Origin: Streptosporangiaceae bacterium
Lineage (GTDB): Bacteria; Actinomycetota; Actinomycetes; Streptosporangiales; Streptosporangiaceae
Assembly (NCBI GenBank): GCA_030042885.1
Contig: JASHYW010000117.1
Location: 1 to 8,220, forward strand
DNA: 8,220 nt
Direction of reading: 5' to 3'
Of the stretch, positions 1 through 8,220 are shown in pieces. Under the pieces are notes generated by a model. The model was not told the origin of the DNA and made no database searches. It saw nothing but the letters and a program-made list of their open reading frames with translations. The position numbers and the translations under genes are program-made. Numbering within the stretch: position 1 is the stretch's first letter; each line of letters starts with the position of its first letter.

Positions 1-1015
1 CACCCAGCAGCCCGATGCTGATGTGGCGGCGGGGGCCGAGCCGCGGGTACAGCACCCGGCTGGCCAGCTGCGCGCCGGCCATGACCCCGAGCGCCTCGGG
101 GAACGTGCTCAGCCCGGAACCGAGCGCGCTCAGGCCGCGGCCGTCCTGGTAGTACAGGGAGATGGCGTACAGAGTGCCGAGGAAGGCGACCGAAGCGAGG
201 ACCATGACGCCGTTACCGGCCCGGAACAGGCGGTTCTTCAGCAGCCGAAGGTCCACCATGGGCGCGGCCGACCTCAGCTCGACGAACGCCATGGCCGCGA
301 GCAGCACCACCCCGGCCGCGATTGCCGCGCGTACCTGCGTCTCGTGCCAGCCCAGGTTGGGCCCTTCCGCCACGCCGTACATCAGCAGCCCCAGCCCCAG
401 CCCGGACAGCAGGAACCCGGCCAGGTCGAAACGGCCAGGCCGCGCTTGGGCCGACTGCCGCAGGAATACCGCGCCGAAGGTGAACGCCGCCATGCCGATT
501 GGCAGGTTCACGTAGAACACCCACCGCCAGGACAGGCCGGTGACCAGCAGCCCGCCCAGGACCGGGCCGAGGGCCGGGGCGAACGTCGTCGGAATGGTGA
601 GAATCGCCGCGGCCCTGATTCGCTCCTCGGGCGGGAACACGCGGTACAGCATCGCCATCCCGACCGGGGCCAGCATGCCGCCGCCCGCGCCCTGCAGGAT
701 CCGGAACGCGACCAGCTCGCCCAGGCTGGAGGCCAGCCCGCACAGCACCGAGGCGGCGGTGAACACCGCGATGGCCGCCAGCAGCACCCGCTTGCCGCCC
801 AGGCGGTCGCCGAGCCAGCCGGACGCCGGGATGAATACGGCCAGGCTGACCAGGAAGGCGATCGAGATACTGTCCACCGCCGTGGGGCTCACCCCGAAGT
901 CGCGGCCGATGGTCGGCAGGGCGACGTTCACGATCGTCGCATCCATGATGCTCATGAACATGGCGGCGACGAAGACGACACCGACCGCGACCTTCTGGCT
1001 GATGCGCGCGGCCAC
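1..1015 (-). CDS. DHA2-family MFS multidrug exporter (EmrB/QacA type), 3' end cut off by window
   Basis: This is a proton-driven efflux transporter of the 14-helix DHA2 family in the cytoplasmic membrane; the exported compound cannot be told. About 338 codons are visible, and the C-terminal helices lie beyond base 1. Seen in the translation: the D1 motif MDATIVNVALPTI near residues 24-36, motif A (GWLGDRLGGKRVLL) after helix 2, RILQGAGGGMLAP in helix 4, and motif C (APALGPVLGG) in helix 5, typical of drug:H+ antiporters. I chose the GTG at 1015-1013 because GGGGAGAGG sits five bases upstream at 1029-1021. An in-frame stop at 1085-1083 limits any extension, and the downstream ATGs would cut into helix 1. 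It is divergent from the oxidoreductase at 1137, so the two may share a control region. No TetR or MarR regulator is visible here. Family assignment is secure; substrate is unknown. Confidence 0.92.
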   Translation of the reverse strand, partial: MAARISQKVAVGVVFVAAMFMSIMDATIVNVALPTIGRDFGVSPTAVDSISIAFLVSLAVFIPASGWLGDRLGGKRVLLAAIAVFTAASVLCGLASSLGELVAFRILQGAGGGMLAPVGMAMLYRVFPPEERIRAAAILTIPTTFAPALGPVLGGLLVTGLSWRWVFYVNLPIGMAAFTFGAVFLRQSAQARPGRFDLAGFLLSGLGLGLLMYGVAEGPNLGWHETQVRAAIAAGVVLLAAMAFVELRSAAPMVDLRLLKNRLFRAGNGVMVLASVAFLGTLYAISLYYQDGRGLSALGSGLSTFPEALGVMAGAQLASRVLYPRLGPRRHISIGLLG

Positions 1016-1136
1016 GACTTCCTCTCCCCGCGGCTCGGTCCTGCGGCGCGCGGCATCCCGGCTATCCTGCCGAGGACAAGCTCATGCGAGCGCTGGAAAT
1101 TCCGGTCCGGATCACCCGGGGAGAAGGAGGCCTCCG
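1016..1136. promoter_or_regulatory. Divergent intergenic control region
   Basis: These 121 bases separate the divergent starts of the DHA2 exporter and the oxidoreductase, so they must hold both promoters unless one gene is read from farther away. Each gene has a good ribosome binding site at its end of the region: GGGGAGAGG for the exporter (1029-1021, minus strand) and AAGGAGG for the oxidoreductase (1124-1130, six bases before its ATG). I could not identify a convincing -35/-10 pair or a clear palindromic operator on either strand. Its role as a control region is inferred from gene orientation only. Confidence 0.45.
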
Positions 1137-1997
1137 ATGCGCCACATCACCGTGCTGGGGACCGGCCTCATGGGCGCGGCCATGGCCCGCAGCCTGCTGC
1201 GGGCCGGCCTGGACGTCACGGTGTGGAACCGGACCGCGGGCCGGGCCGCGCCGCTGGCCGCGGACGGCGCGCAAGTGGCCGGCACCGCCGCCGAGGCGGT
1301 CGCCGGGGCAGACGCGGTGGTCACCATGTTGTGGGACGGCGACTCGGTGGCCGAGGTGATGACTGAAGCGCTTCCGGCCGCGCCGGCCGGGGTGCTGTGG
1401 GTCCAGACGAGCACGGTGAGCCTGGACGACGCCGGCGACCGGCTGCCCGCCCTGGCCGCCAGGCACGGGGCCCGGTACATCGACGCCCCGGTGCTGGGCA
1501 CCCGCCAGCCCGCCGAGGAAGGCAAGCTCACGGTCCTGGCCGCCGCTCCCGAGCCGCTGCGGGACCCGGTCGCGCCGGTGTTCGGCGCGACCGCCGCCCG
1601 CGTCGTCTGGGTCAGCGAACGGCCGGGCGACGGCACCCGTCTCAAGCTGGTCGCCAACTCCTGGGTCGCCACGATCGTGGCTGCGACCGGCCAGGCGATT
1701 GCGTTCGCCCGGGATCTCGGCCTGGATCCGCAGGCGTTCCTGGATATGGTCAAGGGCGGCGCCGTGGACACCCCCTATCTCCGCCTGAAGGGCCAGGCGA
1801 TGATCGCCGGCCAGTTCCCGCCCTCGTTCGCGGTGGACGGTGCGGTCAAGGACACCGGGCTCATCGCCGCGGCGATGCGGGAGGTGGGCACCGACGCCAC
1901 GCTGATGGACGTCGTCGGGCAGCAATACCGCAAGGCCGCCGACGCTGGGCACGGCGAGGAGGATTTTGCCGCCGTCTACCACGCTTTCCGTGGCTGA
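1137..1997 (+). CDS. NAD(P)-dependent oxidoreductase, 3-hydroxyisobutyrate dehydrogenase / beta-hydroxyacid dehydrogenase family
   Basis: This 286-residue cytoplasmic dehydrogenase has the usual family length. The N-terminal Rossmann domain shows GTGLMG at residues 8-13 and VWNRT at 29-33. An N-R-T at the end of beta strand 2 normally favours NADP(H) over NAD(H). The substrate-loop equivalent is STVS at 92-95, and the catalytic lysine of the family is K170, with N174 following in the helical domain (LKLVANSW). The hallmark DAPVSGG loop is altered to DAPVLGT (residues 116-122), so 3-hydroxyisobutyrate itself may not be the substrate; a relative acting on another hydroxy acid, or an uncharacterised reductase, is possible. 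The start at ATG 1137 is fixed by AAGGAGG six bases upstream; a longer in-frame reading from 540 only runs antisense to the exporter. It stands alone on its strand, divergent from the exporter and convergent with the operon end at 2047. The 49 bases between the two stop codons show no strong terminator hairpin. Confidence 0.9.
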   Translation: MRHITVLGTGLMGAAMARSLLRAGLDVTVWNRTAGRAAPLAADGAQVAGTAAEAVAGADAVVTMLWDGDSVAEVMTEALPAAPAGVLWVQTSTVSLDDAGDRLPALAARHGARYIDAPVLGTRQPAEEGKLTVLAAAPEPLRDPVAPVFGATAARVVWVSERPGDGTRLKLVANSWVATIVAATGQAIAFARDLGLDPQAFLDMVKGGAVDTPYLRLKGQAMIAGQFPPSFAVDGAVKDTGLIAAAMREVGTDATLMDVVGQQYRKAADAGHGEEDFAAVYHAFRG

Positions 1998-2046
1998 GCC
2001 CGAGTCCGGCGTCTCCCCTGGCGAGTTCGGCTAAGCGGCGACGGCC

Positions 2047-2319
2047 TCAGATGCCATCCCAGATGTGCGTCACGTAGAAGACCCAGCGGTAGTCCGTTTC
2101 CGGGTTGGTGCTGAACTGCTTCTGCCGGTCCAGGGACTGCTGCCAGCAGTCGTCGCAGAACCCTTCGGGCAGGCTCTCCCGGATCTCGCTCTGGGACATG
2201 CCTTGGATCATCAGGACTCCGAGCTGGCGGACGTAGATGTTAATGACCTCGGACCCGCCCTGGTCCGCGCCTGCCGCCTGGACGATTCTACCCGGCCGGA
2301 CGCCGGGCATCATCGGCAT
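2047..2319 (-). CDS. Small unrecognised protein with CxxC motif, last gene of the operon
   Basis: I do not recognise this 90-residue protein. Its start overlaps the 3' end of the FGGY kinase by about 32 bases, so it is probably translated by coupling. ATGs at 2319, 2313 and 2310 are all possible, none has a clear Shine-Dalgarno sequence, and no other start lies before the conserved-looking part. Codons after about residue 22 have strongly GC-biased third positions, supporting a real gene. From there the protein reads as a helical stretch (VINIYVRQLGVLMIQGMS), an acidic/polar helix, then FCDDCW with a Cys pair at residues 55 and 58. The aromatic-rich end contains DYRWVFYVTHIWDGI. There is no signal peptide or membrane segment. 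It could be a metal- or redox-sensitive accessory protein for the kinase or lyase, but function is unknown. The plus-strand reading over the same bases is the less protein-like of the two. Confidence 0.68.
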   Translation of the reverse strand: MPMMPGVRPGRIVQAAGADQGGSEVINIYVRQLGVLMIQGMSQSEIRESLPEGFCDDCWQQSLDRQKQFSTNPETDYRWVFYVTHIWDGI

Positions 2320-3877
2320 GATCGCGGTTGAGGCGGGCGTGTGCCTTGCGGTTGCGCCGGTAGAGCCCGACGAACTCGGCGAACAGCTTGTCGTAGAGCT
2401 CCTTGGGGGCCGGGTCCGGCTGGTAGCTCCTCGCCACCCGGACGCGGTCCGGCACCTGGTCGAACGTGAGCTCGCCGAGCGCGACCGCGGCCAGCAGGCC
2501 CACTCCCCGCGTGCCCGCGTTCACCGGGTCGGCGACCTGATCGATGGTCCGGCCGAGCACGTCGGCGAAGATCTGGCACCACACGTCCGAACGCGCGCCG
2601 CCACCGATGAACCGGATCGGCTCCAGCCGGTGTCGGGTGAAGCGCTCCACGGCCCCGAGCAGCCAGCGCGCGTTGAGGGCCACGCCTTCGAACACGGCCC
2701 GCACCAGGTCCTCACGGTTCGCCGATAGCGAGAGGTTGTGAAATCCGCCGCGCACGAATCGGTCTTCGACCGGGGTCCGTTCGCCGTACAGCCACGGGGT
2801 GAAGATCACCCCGTGGCTCCCGGGCGGGGCGTGAGCGGCCATCCGGTCGAAGTCGCGGTACGCGGAGGCCGGCGGGTCATCGCCGAAGAGCACCCGGTCG
2901 CGCAGGAACGTGAGGGCGGCCCCGGCTGTCTCCTGCTCGTCGGCGACGAAGTAGCGCCCCGGTATCGGCGACGGCAGCGAAGCCATGTTGTGCAGCAGGT
3001 CGGTCTTCTTGAACGGCACGTGGCAGGTCAGCCAGGATGATGTGCCGACGTACAGATGCGCTTGGTAGTCGCGGGTGGCCCCGGAGCCGATCGCCGCCGA
3101 TTGCAGGTCAGGCGTGCCGACGACGACCGGGATGCCGGCCGGGACGCCCAGGGCGTCCGCTGGCTCGGGCGACAGCGGGCCGAGGATGTCCGTGGCGGCC
3201 AGCAGTTCGGGCAGCCGCGACTCCTCGATCCCGGCCAGCCGCAGCAGCGCAGGGTCATAGCGGATGCGGTCCGAGTGCCGGTTGTCGGTCACCCAGTGCA
3301 GCGCGATCGAGTCGAACGAGGCCGCGCAACGCCCGGTGAGACGGGCGTTGAGCCAGTCCTTGGGTTCCAGGAACATGTGCGCCCGGCGGTAGGTGTCCGG
3401 CTCCTCGTGCTTGAGCCACAGGATGTGGGCGATGGGGTCCTTGCCGCTCTGCGCCGGTATCCCGGCCGTGGTGCGCAGCCATCGCGCCAGCCTGACCACC
3501 CCGTAGCCCTGCACCTTCACGGCTCCGCCGGTGATGCGCCGCGCGTACGGCGCGCCGCGCGAGTCCATCCAGATGATCGCGTCGCGGATGGGCTGGGCAT
3601 GCTCATCGACGGGCACGGTTCCCGACCACTGGGCGGTGCACGCCACGGCCGCCACCGATTCCGCCGGGACGGCGCCGCGGGCCATGAGGCGGGATGACGC
3701 CTTGGTGATCAGGTCCCACCACTGCCGCGGATCCTGCTCGGCGCCGCCCCCGGGAAGCAGCGTCACCTGGCACGTCTCCTCCTCTGAGGCCACGACCACG
3801 CCGGCCATGGTTACCAGGGCGATCTTCAACGCTGAGGTGCCCAGGTCGATGGCCAGGACGTGGCGCGCCATGCTCAT
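2288..3877 (-). CDS. FGGY-family carbohydrate kinase (xylulokinase-like), substrate unknown
   Basis: This cytoplasmic kinase transfers phosphate from ATP to a hydroxyl of a sugar, polyol or related compound. It has 529 residues, normal for FGGY kinases. The N-terminal half begins with [15 protein letters not shown] (phosphate-1 loop, D11), followed by CTAQWSG (80-86) and IIWMDSRG (101-108), and [13 protein letters not shown] (254-266) where D257 is the likely catalytic base. The C-terminal half has [27 protein letters not shown] and the ATP-site segment [20 protein letters not shown]. The usual xylulokinase QMHG and WNDGR segments are replaced by AQWSG and WMDSRG, so xylulose is not a safe assignment. 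The first ATG (3877-3875) overlaps the lyase stop as ATGA. The ATG two codons later (3871) is better spaced from GAGG and starts directly at [11 protein letters not shown], so it may be the real start. It is third in the operon, and its position after an S1P-lyase-type enzyme suggests it makes the phosphorylated substrate for that enzyme. Confidence 0.93.
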
Positions 3878-5277
3878 ACCTCGAAGAGCAGGTCGAGGTA
3901 GCCGGCCAGGACCTGGCGTACGACCTCCGCGGGCAGGCTGGCGGCCATGCCGTAGACCGGGGCCATTCCGGTGCTGACCCCCGGGTTGGCCCGGACCTCC
4001 TCGACCGACTCGGCCAGGTCGGCCAGGAAACGGTCGGCCACGCCGGGCTGGGTGTGGCGCAGCGTGACCGCGATGTGGACCGCGGCGGGCCGCTGCAGGC
4101 CGTTCAGGCTCCAGCCGCGGTGGCCCATGTTCTCCATGACCTGGTAGACGTCGAGACCATCCTCGGCGGCGAAGGCGATGACCCACAGCGGATCGCCGAG
4201 GACCCGCAGCCCGGGTATGGCCGCGACGCCGTCCCGTATCTTCGCCCCGGTCAGCAGGATCCGCCGGGCCGCCTCGGTGTAGCCGCTCTGCCCGATCGAG
4301 ACCATGGCCGCCCAGCAGGTGGCGGACAGGGCACCTGGCCGGCTGCCCGCGAACGTGGGGGACAGGTACAGCCCGCCCGGCCAGTCGGTGACCGCGTAGT
4401 ACTGGTAGTGACGCAATTCCCTGCCGCGGTACAGCACGACCGAGGAGCCCTTGGCCGCGTACCCGTACTTGTGCGTGTCCGCCGACATCGAGGTCACGCC
4501 GGGCAGCCGGAAGTCGAAGGGGGGCACCGGGTAACCCAGCCGCCGCGCCCACGGCAGGATGAAACCGCCGAGGCACGCGTCGACGTGGCAGGCCACGCCG
4601 CCTTCGGCCGCCAGCGCCGCGATCTCGGGGATCGGGTCGATCACCCCGTGCGGGAAGGTCGGCGCCGAACCCACCACGACGGCCGTCCGCTCGCTCATGG
4701 CATCGGCCAGCTCGTCAGGATCGACCCTGAAGTCATCGCCGACCGGGACCCGCACCAGCGGCATGTCGAAGAACCGCGCCGCCTTGTCGAACGCCGCGTG
4801 CGCGGTGACCGGCGCGACGATTTCCGGCGCGGCGATGCCGCGGCGCTCGCGGGCGACGTCGCGGTAGGCCTTCATCGCCAGCAGGATGCTCTCGGTCCCG
4901 CCGGAGCTCACCGTGCCGACCACCGGCGTCTCCGCCGCCTGGTCGGCGCCGAGCATGGACGCGGTCATCGCGACGATTTCCGCCTCGAACTTGGTGGCGC
5001 TCGGCCACAGGTCCGGATGCAGCGGATTACTTTGCGACTGCGCGGCGTAGACCCGGCTGAGGAACGCCGTGTGTTCCGGATCGCCGTGGTAGACGGCGCC
5101 GGACGCGTATCCCTCGCGCCACGTGTGTTCTTCCGCTGAGGCGAGCCGCTCGACGAGATCGGCTACCTCGGCCCGGGCCAGGCCGTCGGCCGGCAGTTCC
5201 CGGAACGAAGGAAACTTGTCCCGGTAGGGCTTGAGCTGACGTTCCAGGTCGGCCATCGGGTCCGTGGCGTCAGTCAC
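3874..5277 (-). CDS. Sphingosine-1-phosphate lyase family PLP-dependent enzyme
   Basis: This is a 467-residue fold-type I PLP enzyme of the group II decarboxylase superfamily. It matches the sphingosine-1-phosphate lyase branch rather than glutamate decarboxylase. Family members cleave the C2-C3 bond of phosphorylated 2-amino-1,3-diols, giving phosphoethanolamine and a fatty aldehyde. Segments shared with eukaryotic S1P lyase, in order: SGAVYHGD (59-66), SNPLHPD (83-89), SSGGTESIL (124-132), PEIVAP then [10 protein letters not shown] with PLP-stacking H160, [20 protein letters not shown] with D233 for the pyridine nitrogen, [15 protein letters not shown] with Schiff-base lysine K270, [11 protein letters not shown], and a terminal [10 protein letters not shown]. 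It lacks the N-terminal membrane anchor of the eukaryotic enzyme, so it should be soluble. Start GTG 5277 follows AAGGAGG by six bases and overlaps the transporter stop as GTGA; its own stop overlaps the kinase start as ATGA. No key residue appears missing. Family is near certain; the physiological substrate is not, since few actinomycetes are known to make sphingolipids. Confidence 0.95.
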
Positions 5278-6488
5278 TGGGCTCCTCCTTGGTACGCGCT
5301 GGCGGCGCTCGTGGCTGCGGCACTGCCGGCTGGAAGCCTGATGGCCAGCGCGAGCCCGGCCAGGCAAATGGCCGAGAGGGTGCCCAGCGAAAGGTACGGG
5401 TTCCCGATGGCGGCCTGGACGATCAGCACCAGGACCACGCCGCCGAGGTTCCCGGACAGCAGCAGGAACCCGGCCGCACCGCCGGCGCGTTCGGGCCCGG
5501 CGTACAGTTCCGACCAGTCCAGCACGACCGGCAGGCCGGCCAGCAGGAAGAAACCGGCGGCGAACAGGACGAGCGCGTTGACGGCCGGGTTATGCACCAC
5601 GGCGATCACGGCGAACGCCGCCGCCGTCACCACCACCGCGATCTCCAGCAGGCCCCGTCGCTGGTTGCGCTGCGCGACGACGCCCGGCAGCAGCCCGCCG
5701 CCGGCGATCCCTCCCACGGTCATCAGCGCGATCAGGTAGCCGCTCGCGCCGCCGTGACCGAAGTGCGTGAGGATGGAGTCGAGCCACGTCGCGACCGCGT
5801 TGAATACCCCCATCCCGACGAACAGCAGGCTGGCCAGCAGCCACATGAATCGGTCGCCCCGCAGCCAGCGCAGGGACACCGCGACCGACGGATCGCCCGG
5901 GAAAGCCGCGGGCGCCCGGATCACCGTCAGTACCCACACGGCGGCCAGCACGGCCACGGCGGCCTGGACCCTCAGCAGCAGCCTCAGGCCGCCGGCGTCG
6001 AGCAGCGGCCCGCCGGAAAGGACGGCGGCGAGAATGCCCGCGAACAGGGCCACGCTGCCGATGGAGACCGCCGTCACCCGCTCCCTGGCCGGGAAGTAGC
6101 GGCCGGCCACCTTGGTGATCGAGTTGAGCACGAACGGCTGGCCCGCCGCGGTCACGAACTGGCCCGCGAGGGCCCAGCCGTACGACGACGGGCCGGCCAG
6201 GCGCAGCAGCCCGCCGGCCGCGGTCAAGGTCGCGCCGAGGCCGAGGGCCCGCCCGAACCGGGTGTCGAGCCAGCGGCCAGCGGGCAGGGCCAGGATGACG
6301 TACACAAAGGGGAAGATGACGGCGAGATCGCCCACCGCCCCCTCGGACACCCTCATGATCTGGTGGGTCTGCGTCGTAATCGGCGCGTAGGCGAGCCACA
6401 GCCATTGGGTGCACGCGGTCAGCAGTGCATAACCGGTCAGGATAATCCACCGGTTGACCCGCACCGGTGCCACGCTCTGTGCCGTCAC
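5274..6488 (-). CDS. MFS transporter, FLVCR-like, first gene of the operon
   Basis: This 404-residue, roughly 12-helix major facilitator protein sits in the cytoplasmic membrane. It resembles the FLVCR branch, whose animal members carry choline and ethanolamine. Supporting segments: CTQWLW in helix 1 (W29), the modified motif [13 protein letters not shown] (69-80), which matches the FLVCR pattern WLLDTRGLR better than the drug-exporter GxLaDrxGrk, and [14 protein letters not shown] in helix 4 (Q117) followed by [18 protein letters not shown]29 and Q117 line up by eye with substrate-contact positions that I recall for FLVCR proteins; this alignment is not computed. The GTG at 6488-6486 is chosen because GGAG lies five bases upstream, and the upstream in-frame extension (to 6671) is a Cys/Arg-rich non-protein-like stretch lying over the regulator remnant. 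GTGs at 6473 and 6464 are alternatives. It heads the operon and overlaps the lyase by four bases, suggesting it supplies the substrate or moves a product of that pathway. MFS membership is certain, the FLVCR-like branch likely, and direction of transport unknown. Confidence 0.9.
5282..5290 (-). promoter_or_regulatory. Strong ribosome binding site that sets the lyase GTG start
   Basis: AAGGAGGAG lies within the last codons of the transporter gene, and its AAGGAGG core is six bases before the GTG at 5277. This is the best Shine-Dalgarno sequence in the operon. It decides between this start and a longer open frame reaching to 5367. With the GTGA stop/start overlap it suggests the lyase is both re-initiated and independently loaded. 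Confidence 0.75.
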
Positions 6489-6602
6489 TGCCGCTCCGCT
6501 GCTGTGCTCGCCCTTGCATCCCTGGGGACATCTTCGTGCCTGCGATGCGGCTACGCCACCCCGAGTCAAACCCGCGACGGGGCGCCTGTGCGGGATGCGG
6601 AT
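6489..6602 (-). promoter_or_regulatory. Leader/promoter region of the transporter-lyase-kinase operon
   Basis: This stretch lies between the regulator remnant and the transporter start and is the likely site of the operon promoter. On the minus strand a TTGACT (6569-6564) resembles a -35 element, but no convincing -10 sequence lies 16-19 bases downstream. The binding site GGAG at 6497-6494 precedes the GTG start. The bases immediately after the remnant contain no recognisable gene. The promoter is proposed from position and the single half-element only. Confidence 0.3.
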
Positions 6603-7251
6603 TCGCCTCCCGCAAGAACAGCGGGCCAACGGCTGCCCAGGCCAGCAGGCGGGGATCGTCGCGAAGTTCATCGGAGCATTCGAGGACTTCCACTGCCGCG
6701 CGGATCGCCGGCGCGCCAGGCTCGCCCTCGCCCGAGAAGATCAGCGCCATACCCCGTACGAGCAAGGCGAAGAAGGTGGTACGCCTGTCCGCGTCTGGCG
6801 GGAGGAGCGACCCGGCCCGCTCCGCCGCCCGTCGCATGGTAGCCGTATCACCGGCGTAAAGGGACGCGGCCACAACCTCGGCGAGCATCACCACGCCACG
6901 TTCCGGATCGATCGGCGCGGCCTGCTCAGCGCCGGCCAGCAGGATCTCCTGAGCTGTGGTGACTGGCCCGCGCCGGGTCGCGATCTGGCCGCGGAGGTGC
7001 TCGATCGCGACGGCCAGATTGGGAGTGAGGGCATGCCGGCCCGCCTGGTCCAGCAGCGCCACGGCACGCTCGGCCAGTCCGCCGAGCCAGGCAGCGTCGG
7101 CCGCAGCGTACATCAGCCGGCCCTGCCGCGCCTCTTCGGGGGCCAGCAGCGCCGCGCGCTCGAACGCCCGGGACGAAACTTCGTAGGCGCTGCGCTGGTA
7201 GGCGCGCTGACCGGCCTGCTCGAGCGCCGACGAGGCCGTGCCGTCGGGACC
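6600..7251 (-). pseudogene. Remnant of a LAL-type LuxR-family transcriptional regulator (middle region only)
   Basis: About 216 codons in one minus-strand frame read as the helical, TPR-like middle of the large ATP-binding LuxR regulators common in actinomycetes. Typical phrases in order are SSALEQAGQRA, RAFERAALLAPEEARQGRLM, ADAAWLGGLAERAVALLDQA, AIEHLRGQIATRRG, QEILLAGAEQ and DDPRLLAWAAVGPLFLRE. In intact members (around 900 residues) this part is preceded by a Walker A/B ATPase domain and followed by more repeats and a C-terminal LuxR helix-turn-helix. Here similarity stops abruptly near 7251 and near 6603, and I find neither flanking domain in any frame. There is no good start with a binding site at the left boundary, and the frame simply continues into non-coding-like sequence. 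A short expressed TPR-like protein cannot be excluded. It lies just upstream of the operon in the same direction, so the intact gene may once have been its neighbour or regulator. Confidence 0.65.
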
Positions 7252-7572
7252 GGCCCGGCGCGCTGGCCGGCCGGAGCGCGAGCGCGCTCTCCAGCGCCAT
7301 GGCAAAACGACAAGGCCGCCGTCCCCTCCTCCGGACCAGCCACAACGACAGAGTAAACCCGCAAGCGCAGCCGTTCGCTCTCGCAAGCGCTGGCCGACGC
7401 AGGTGAGTTGCCGGGACCCTGATGCGCAGCCGCCGGGCAGACGGGCCACGCGGGCAGGCGGGCCGCATACGGCCATGATCTTGCTGCGGATCGGCGAGAG
7501 GGTCCGAGGATGACTGCCACAAGGCAGCCGCGTTAAGCTGTATTTGGACCCTCCTCCTGGGGAGGCGCCGTG
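7252..7572. other. Gene-free stretch upstream of the DUF1707 gene
   Basis: No frame on either strand reads as a convincing protein here: the open frames are Arg/Pro/Ala-rich and lack recognisable motifs. It probably contains decayed 5' sequence of the LAL regulator plus the promoter region of the plus-strand gene at 7573. The only structures I see are two short inverted repeats near the right end (7514-7527 and 7550-7565). Confidence 0.5.
7514..7527 (+). repeat. Short perfect inverted repeat upstream of the DUF1707 gene
   Basis: CTGCC-ACAA-GGCAG forms a five-base perfect inverted repeat with a four-base spacer, about 45 bases before the ATG. A second imperfect pairing downstream, CCTCC (7550-7554 or 7553-7557) with GGAGG (7561-7565), could fold over the ribosome binding site. 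The first repeat could be an operator half-site pair or a small hairpin. Such short repeats also occur by chance in GC-rich DNA, so the role is uncertain. Confidence 0.35.
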
Positions 7573-8199
7573 ATGGCAGGGCCGAGAGACGAGAAGGCGG
7601 CAACTGCGGCGGGCCGCAGCCATCTGCGGGCGTCGCACGCCGACCGCGAGCAGACGATCGAAACGCTCAAAGCCGCGTTCGTGCAGGATCGGCTGACCAA
7701 GGACGAGTTCGACGCGCGAATCGGCCAGACGCTCGCCGCGCGTACATACGCGGAACTTGCCACGGTCACCTCCGATATCCCCGCCGGGCTGGCCGGAACC
7801 CAGCGGCCGCGCAAACCGCGCCGGGTGCCGGTGAATAACGCAGTCAAGTGGGGCACATCCGGATTCGTTATGCCTGCCATTCTTGCCGCCGCTTTTGCGC
7901 TCGGTTCCCTACGCGGTGACGGCGGATATGGGGCTATGGCCTTTGTGATTGCATTCGTTTATTTCGTGTTCTGGCTGTCCGTCGGCGCCGATATGCTCTG
8001 GGAATGGTATTGTACATCTTTGCCAGCGGCAAGAATGTGCGTCCGATGCGCGCACACCGCCGCATCTCACCGCGCGCCAGCGTCATGCGCAGTCCGGCTG
8101 GGTTCGCTGAAATTGTGGAGACGCTGCCCTTGCGTGGGCTATGTTCCGCCGGGGCTGTCACCAGAGACCGTCGACCTGAGCTGGGGTTGTCCCGCCTGA
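7573..8199 (+). CDS. DUF1707 (SHOCT-like) two-helix membrane protein with Cys/His-rich tail
   Basis: This predicted 208-residue membrane protein is of unknown function. Residues 18-70 are a DUF1707 domain: LRASHADREQTIETLKAAF, then LTKDEFDARI and AARTYAELATVTSDIP. This small helical module is common at the N-terminus of actinobacterial membrane proteins. An Arg/Lys-rich linker (78-84) leads to two hydrophobic segments, about 94-113 and 119-140, ending in DMLWEW. Both ends should face the cytoplasm. The tail has CVRCAH (C156, C159, H161), H166, C172, C185-P-C187 and C206, which could be a small zinc-binding cluster. The tail codons are less GC-biased than the rest, so a frameshift after about residue 146 is an alternative. 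ATG 7573 is chosen because GGGGAGG (7559-7565) is seven bases away; the adjacent GTG at 7570 is also possible. The gene stands alone in the window. The DUF1707 call is firm; the tail is less so. Confidence 0.82.
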   Translation: MAGPRDEKAATAAGRSHLRASHADREQTIETLKAAFVQDRLTKDEFDARIGQTLAARTYAELATVTSDIPAGLAGTQRPRKPRRVPVNNAVKWGTSGFVMPAILAAAFALGSLRGDGGYGAMAFVIAFVYFVFWLSVGADMLWEWYCTSLPAARMCVRCAHTAASHRAPASCAVRLGSLKLWRRCPCVGYVPPGLSPETVDLSWGCPA

Positions 8200-8220
8200 C
8201 GGACGGGGCTGAGGCGGCAG

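Follow-up and report, generated by a model that had tools for sequence, protein, structure and literature searches.

The eukaryotic route runs through sphingosine kinase and then sphingosine-1-phosphate (S1P) lyase, a phosphorylation followed by cleavage by a pyridoxal 5'-phosphate (PLP) enzyme to phosphoethanolamine and an aldehyde. Here we examine an operon that would follow the same logic. It lies in a stretch of 8,220 nucleotides from a Streptosporangiaceae bacterium (GenBank assembly GCA_030042885.1, contig JASHYW010000117.1, positions 1–8,220 of the forward strand; the whole stretch is referred to as the window), and contains an S1P-lyase-type gene, an FGGY-family kinase gene, and a transporter gene. 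The eukaryotic route uses a kinase of the DAGK family, whereas the kinase of the window module is of the FGGY family and its gene shares one operon with the lyase gene.

The window kinase has its fold and the FGGY family in common with glycerol kinase and xylulokinase. On the lyase side, the Symbiobacterium thermophilum enzyme StSPL (PDB 3mad, 3maf, 3mau, and 5eud) is of the same family and carries the same two lysines, and the S1P lyases of Burkholderia pseudomallei (PDB 5k1r) also belong to this family. In the sections of PMC3148216 consulted, StSPL cleaves S1P in vitro, its natural function is called 'still unknown', and it is treated as a lone enzyme, whereas the window locus adds an FLVCR-like transporter. 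The main text of PMC5234717, on the B. pseudomallei enzymes, returned neither 'operon' nor 'kinase' in a term search. The original prediction held that four minus-strand genes (transporter, lyase, kinase, and a small CxxC protein) are tightly coupled and share a pathway, and named no described bacterial pathway known to have this exact set. The full-text literature searched indeed contained no such pathway, nor an FGGY kinase paired with an S1P lyase. A kinase acting with S1P lyase is known; an FGGY enzyme in the kinase role did not turn up in that literature.

Linkage of the kinase and the lyase

The kinase and the lyase form a core module that has no constant third gene. We scanned GTDB species genomes with the lyase as the anchor, as had been proposed, and took the best 80 of 159 matched relatives as 80 loci, which span Actinomycetota, Bacillota (Symbiobacteriaceae), Chloroflexota, Myxococcota, Thermodesulfobacteriota, Spirochaetota, KSB1, and others. 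In 69 of these loci, at most 600 bp separate the kinase from the lyase, 63 having the order kinase–lyase and 6 the order lyase–kinase; the kinase is found further away, on the same strand and within 2 kb, in two more (L005 and L055). The remaining nine comprise three lyases near a contig edge (L014, where a kinase fragment is present, L015, and L021), two loci with a lipid-kinase-family gene in place of the FGGY kinase (L039, at 6934–7866, and L063), and four with neither. Kinase and lyase distances correlate across 70 pairs with r 0.894, a value reached in 0 of 2000 permutations and not corrected for species descent.

Whole-genome samples were taken from Chloroflexota (251 genomes), Streptosporangiaceae (150), Myxococcota (140), and Neomarinimicrobiota (149). 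In the first three the genomes were drawn evenly, and distances are those between the matched parts of the two genes. Linkage cuts were chosen after inspection of the data, and kinase matches were listed to an E-value of 1e-60 (1e-100 in Myxococcota). In Chloroflexota, the kinase is within 300 bp for 10 of 11 lyases scoring at least 395 bits and for none of the 11 weaker ones. Among Streptosporangiaceae it is within 181 bp for 9 of 10 lyases of at least 395 bits, the tenth having a fragmented kinase roughly 1 kb off, and near none of the 64 weaker ones. For Myxococcota lyases of at least 58% identity the figure is 9 of 10 within 180 bp, with the tenth at 1.8 kb; among the other 56 lyase matches (43–52%), three are near a kinase of 36–41%, adjacent in G695 and G577 and at 0.9 kb in G566.

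Some loci count against so tight a pairing. Close lyases were found without an adjacent kinase in L046, L052, L068, L077 (one side at a contig edge), and G027. The 395-bit cut fails in Myxococcota, where 11 lyases (46–52%) score 395–448 bits and only two are near a kinase. Three of the 13 Myxococcota kinases of at least 52% have neither lyase nor transaminase within about 4–5 kb (2 kb on one side of G674, at a contig end), and five of the eight at 36–43% sit in an aminoethylphosphonate-type cluster.

This cluster is an observation in its own right. Sister FGGY kinases, 39–43% identical to that of the window, occur in 5 of 140 Myxococcota genomes in what appears to be a 2-aminoethylphosphonate-lipid cluster (L170, with the kinase at 5012–6580, L177, and L178, also L167–L169 and L171). 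In L169 and L170, on which families were run, it includes phosphonopyruvate decarboxylase and 2-aminoethylphosphonate aminotransferase above cut-offs, together with an NTP transferase, a CDP-alcohol phosphotransferase, a cytidylyltransferase, and a DevABC-type exporter; a phosphoenolpyruvate-mutase-like ORF (open reading frame) and the remaining loci were assigned by eye. Separately, genome G001 carries two kinase–lyase modules of different clades, L001 and L131, with values of 86% and 48% for the kinases and 87% and 46% for the lyases, which suggests two substrates.

Within the window, all four minus-strand ORFs are present in the predicted order, and the family calls are borne out: an MFS_1 protein, a PLP enzyme closest to S1P lyases, and an FGGY kinase. 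The transporter gene (5274–6488, minus strand; 404 residues, GTG start) ends in the start of the lyase gene (3874–5277, minus strand; 467 residues, GTG start) through a GTGA overlap at 5277–5274, and the lyase gene ends in the start of the kinase gene (2288–3877, minus strand; 529 residues, ATG start) through an ATGA overlap at 3877–3874, both as predicted. Overlaps of four bases point to translational coupling, but the fixed stoichiometry that had been read from the packing does not follow from them. The motif AAGGAGG stands upstream of the lyase start. DNA of the closest relative, L001, aligns with the window at 86% from 6561 to 2319, that is, over transporter, lyase, and kinase, and the alignment stops at the kinase end; an arrangement kept in this way is beyond chance. 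The genes do form an operon, although the unit takes in only some of the four. The shared pathway is strongly supported for kinase and lyase, holds in part for the transporter, and does not extend to the small CxxC protein.

Enzyme families and the probable order of the reactions

The window lyase belongs to the S1P lyase family by its sequence relation to StSPL and human SPL and by its PLP lysine. It matches StSPL (PDB 3mad) with 700.6 bits over residues 5–467, human SPL with 431 bits, and the B. pseudomallei enzyme (PDB 5k1r) with 396 bits, and lysines K270 and K276 are kept in every relative aligned, 87 close and 12 distant ones. The family also includes glutamate and tyrosine decarboxylases, which would allow the lyase to be a decarboxylase of the same fold, or the pair to run in the synthetic direction. 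Against scores of 700 and 431 bits with S1P lyases, decarboxylases of this fold reach 97 bits, and we regard either alternative as very improbable.

The window kinase has FGGY_N and FGGY_C domains above cut-off and is thus a member of the FGGY carbohydrate kinases. D257, which we take to be the catalytic Asp, is invariant in a 68-row alignment. Relatives are numerous (7846 of 7995 scored candidates at an E-value of 1e-60 or better), and 'xylulokinase' is the source name for many among the 120 listed, as it is the label given to the window kinase. This name, together with the fact that FGGY kinases are mostly sugar kinases, speaks for a kinase that works later than the lyase or in parallel with it, perhaps on a product derived from an aldehyde or a sugar. 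The enzyme, however, scores 265.3 bits against the XylB equivalog, whose cut-off is 380.25, which places it outside the xylulokinases, and is also under the GlpK cut-off; the QMHG motif of E. coli XylB, which presumably has a role in sugar binding, reads QWSG in the window kinase. A kinase step after or beside the lyase therefore appears unlikely. The window kinase likewise has no DAGK_cat domain and is outside the DAGK family of sphingosine kinase; it may work like sphingosine kinase yet not belong to its family.

We consider it likely that the kinase makes the substrate of the lyase, and infer the following order of reactions, kind of substrate, and direction of transport. The FGGY-fold kinase would phosphorylate the primary hydroxyl of a 2-amino-1,3-diol, the head of which resembles glycerol. 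The S1P-lyase-type PLP enzyme would then split the C2–C3 bond of the product to give phosphoethanolamine and an aldehyde, and in the lineage of the window the FLVCR-like protein of the major facilitator superfamily (MFS) would import the substrate.

Sphingoid base or small amino-diol

The gene for StSPL has the same kind of neighbour. StSPL is encoded in genome G704, with 100% identity over both 103-residue stretches compared, and, like the window lyase gene, its gene is followed by that of an FGGY kinase: kinase homology, 56% identical to the window kinase, starts about 15 bp after the StSPL stop. In three Symbiobacteriaceae genomes, including G704, a PF06475 'putative glycolipid-binding' gene (Pfam was run on one) lies 3' of the kinase, directly after it in two and about 2 kb on in the third; by tblastn, no PF06475-like gene was found in relatives of the window outside Symbiobacteriaceae.

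A second observation comes from Neomarinimicrobiota. There, all six close lyases (at least 62% identical to the L039 lyase) have a kinase directly upstream, of the FGGY family in G446, G423, and G490 and with DAGK_cat/YegS_C domains in G010, G014, and G454. The DAGK_cat/YegS kinase ORFs overlap the lyase ORF by 1–4 bases, and sphingosine kinase 1 is among the PDB relatives of the DAGK-type gene at 28.7 bits. The 12 distant lyases of the phylum have neither kinase type within about 1.5 kb. Downstream of the distant lyases, in 9 of 12 loci (L153–L161), is an AMP-binding, acyl-CoA-synthetase-like ORF, which fits the use of a fatty aldehyde or acid; these ORFs were judged by a start resembling the enzyme of L153, with Pfam run for two.

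The lipid-kinase-family swap, the activity of StSPL on S1P, and the PF06475 gene together point to a sphingoid base as the substrate. In this reading, which we hold tentatively at slightly less than an even balance, kinase and lyase act in turn on a long-chain (sphingoid-type) base, with the FGGY enzyme taking the place of sphingosine kinase, as a bacterial counterpart of the eukaryotic route. It is possible, if somewhat less likely than not, that the FGGY enzyme is a sphingoid-base kinase of independent origin that shares an operon with S1P lyase in many bacterial phyla, can be exchanged for a DAGK-family kinase, and is the partner that StSPL has lacked.

The same two steps could instead serve a small polar 2-amino-1,3-diol of the amino-deoxy-alditol, threoninol, or serinol type, and this alternative draws on a second group of operons. 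Among 28 kinases of at least 44% in the Chloroflexota and Streptosporangiaceae samples, 20 have a lyase as neighbour, and the other 8 adjoin genes for a class III aminotransferase and a class II aldolase (Pfam was run on two of the eight operons). For a small diol, these two enzymes would provide an alternative exit, by deamination to a ketose, phosphorylation, and cleavage to dihydroxyacetone phosphate and an aldehyde. Two further observations fit this reading: in the kinase tree, the transaminase-linked enzymes of Chloroflexota are nested among lyase-linked ones with a support of 100, and L075 has both lyase and kinase together with a transporter of the kind seen in the transaminase/aldolase operon (51%). 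The FGGY fold itself, for which the nearest fold to a structural model of the window kinase is glycerol kinase, the transaminase–aldolase exit, and the scarcity of ceramidase would all favour a small amino-diol. Neutral ceramidase (PF04734), considered as a sign of ceramide use and set aside, was found in a single genome of the Chloroflexota sample of 251, and that genome, G061, lacks a match to either lyase or kinase.

Such an assignment nevertheless sits poorly with the lipid-kinase-family swap in Neomarinimicrobiota and with the cleavage of S1P by StSPL, and it assumes one substrate common to both operons. Kinase positions 171 and 316 carry an acid (E or D) in 62 of 62 lyase-linked kinases (our alignment A2), which would fit an amine substrate; in 4 of 5 transaminase-linked kinases compared, these likely pocket positions are N and A. 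We judge a small amino-diol doubtful, though a serious contender.

The transaminase/aldolase operon is itself conserved (L103–L109 and L126), with a class II aldolase, a GSAM-like class III aminotransferase, and the FGGY kinase. The kinase is present with 7 of the 9 Chloroflexota aminotransferases of this operon type; the other two are on contig edges and have none. An MFS protein 28–30% like that of the window occurs in 6 of the 8 kinase operons. An 81-row kinase tree, drawn up with two sets of redundant or partial rows (14 and 10) excluded, requires two changes, and a single transaminase-linked clade appears in 0% of 200 bootstrap trees. We do not claim repeated switching, since a single clade is compatible with an approximately unbiased test (p 0.27).

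Several of these results weigh against a sphingoid base. A bacterial DAGK-domain protein, at 52.8 bits, is a nearer match for the DAGK-type gene than sphingosine kinase is, and the gene scores under every NCBIfam cut-off. Small polyols and ketoses are the substrates of those FGGY kinases that have been characterised, the modelled glycerol-kinase-like fold is in keeping with them, the transaminase and class II aldolase beside the sister kinases perform chemistry usual for sugar phosphates, and the ceramidase result points the same way. On the evidence of both sides, we lean towards a sphingoid base over a small polar amino-diol.

Neighbouring genes and meaning of the module

The transporter has an MFS_1 match and scores 148.9 bits against TIGR00903, under the cut-off of 391.85. 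FLVCR1 and FLVCR2 are its only PDB relatives at an E-value of 0.01, FLVCR2 being the best at 43.7 bits, so its relation to the FLVCR (SLC49) family is present and weak. The protein is probably an importer of the substrate. Homologues of 60–84% adjoin the kinase–lyase pair in seven non-redundant loci of Actinomycetota and Chloroflexota, in two gene orders (84% in L001; 60–65% in L003, L008, L110, L111, L132, and L133), and none was found in L002, L004, or L011. Among the 66 co-directional neighbours scanned (of 118 found), no Pfam family is shared by more than three. In high-GC loci, genes were located by tblastn.

Other neighbours belong to particular groups of lyases. In the Chloroflexota loci L050 (whose kinase is the same as that of L087), L053, and L086, an amidase-signature enzyme (PF01425) is directly 3' of the lyase. 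Several distant lyases (38–46%) of Chloroflexota and Streptosporangiaceae have an MFS_2-like, sugar-transporter-like gene upstream (L094, L097, on which Pfam was run, L098, L102, L123–L125, and others).

The small CxxC ORF is a downstream neighbour outside the module. The overlap of about 32 bases with the kinase gene that had been described exists only when the longest ORF (2319–2047, minus strand) is taken as the gene. In 17 aligned rows, conservation of the family starts at Met37 of that ORF, an ATG at 2211 that is 76 bases past the kinase stop, and 12 of 37 homologues are exactly 54 residues long; the gene therefore starts at 2211 (2047–2211, minus strand; 54 residues) and does not overlap the kinase gene. 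Searches of the 80 related loci (E-value 1e-3) and of the 150 Streptosporangiaceae genomes (E-value 1e-6; that set contained no positive control) did not recover it. We rejected it as a fourth member of the module on its start and on these absences. The ORF does represent a genuine family of small proteins, whose 37 database entries share the invariant core GFCDDCWQQ and include one with the named source Streptosporangiaceae; the 54-residue protein has no Pfam match.

Upstream of the transporter, an open stretch at 6592–7308 (minus strand), regulator- or TPR-like by eye and without a Pfam match, may be a gene remnant. The operon is flanked by a DHA2 (EmrB) efflux gene at 2–1015 (minus strand) and a convergent beta-hydroxyacid dehydrogenase-type gene at 1137–1997 (plus strand); the latter had no match in the 80 related loci (E-value 1e-3) and was rejected as a module member.

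The gene partner of StSPL, a structural model enzyme, is now named, which makes the natural role of StSPL testable. A long-chain base as substrate would mean that sphingosine-kinase activity arose twice, in unrelated folds. A small amino-diol would give S1P lyases a further metabolic role, in a new catabolic route.
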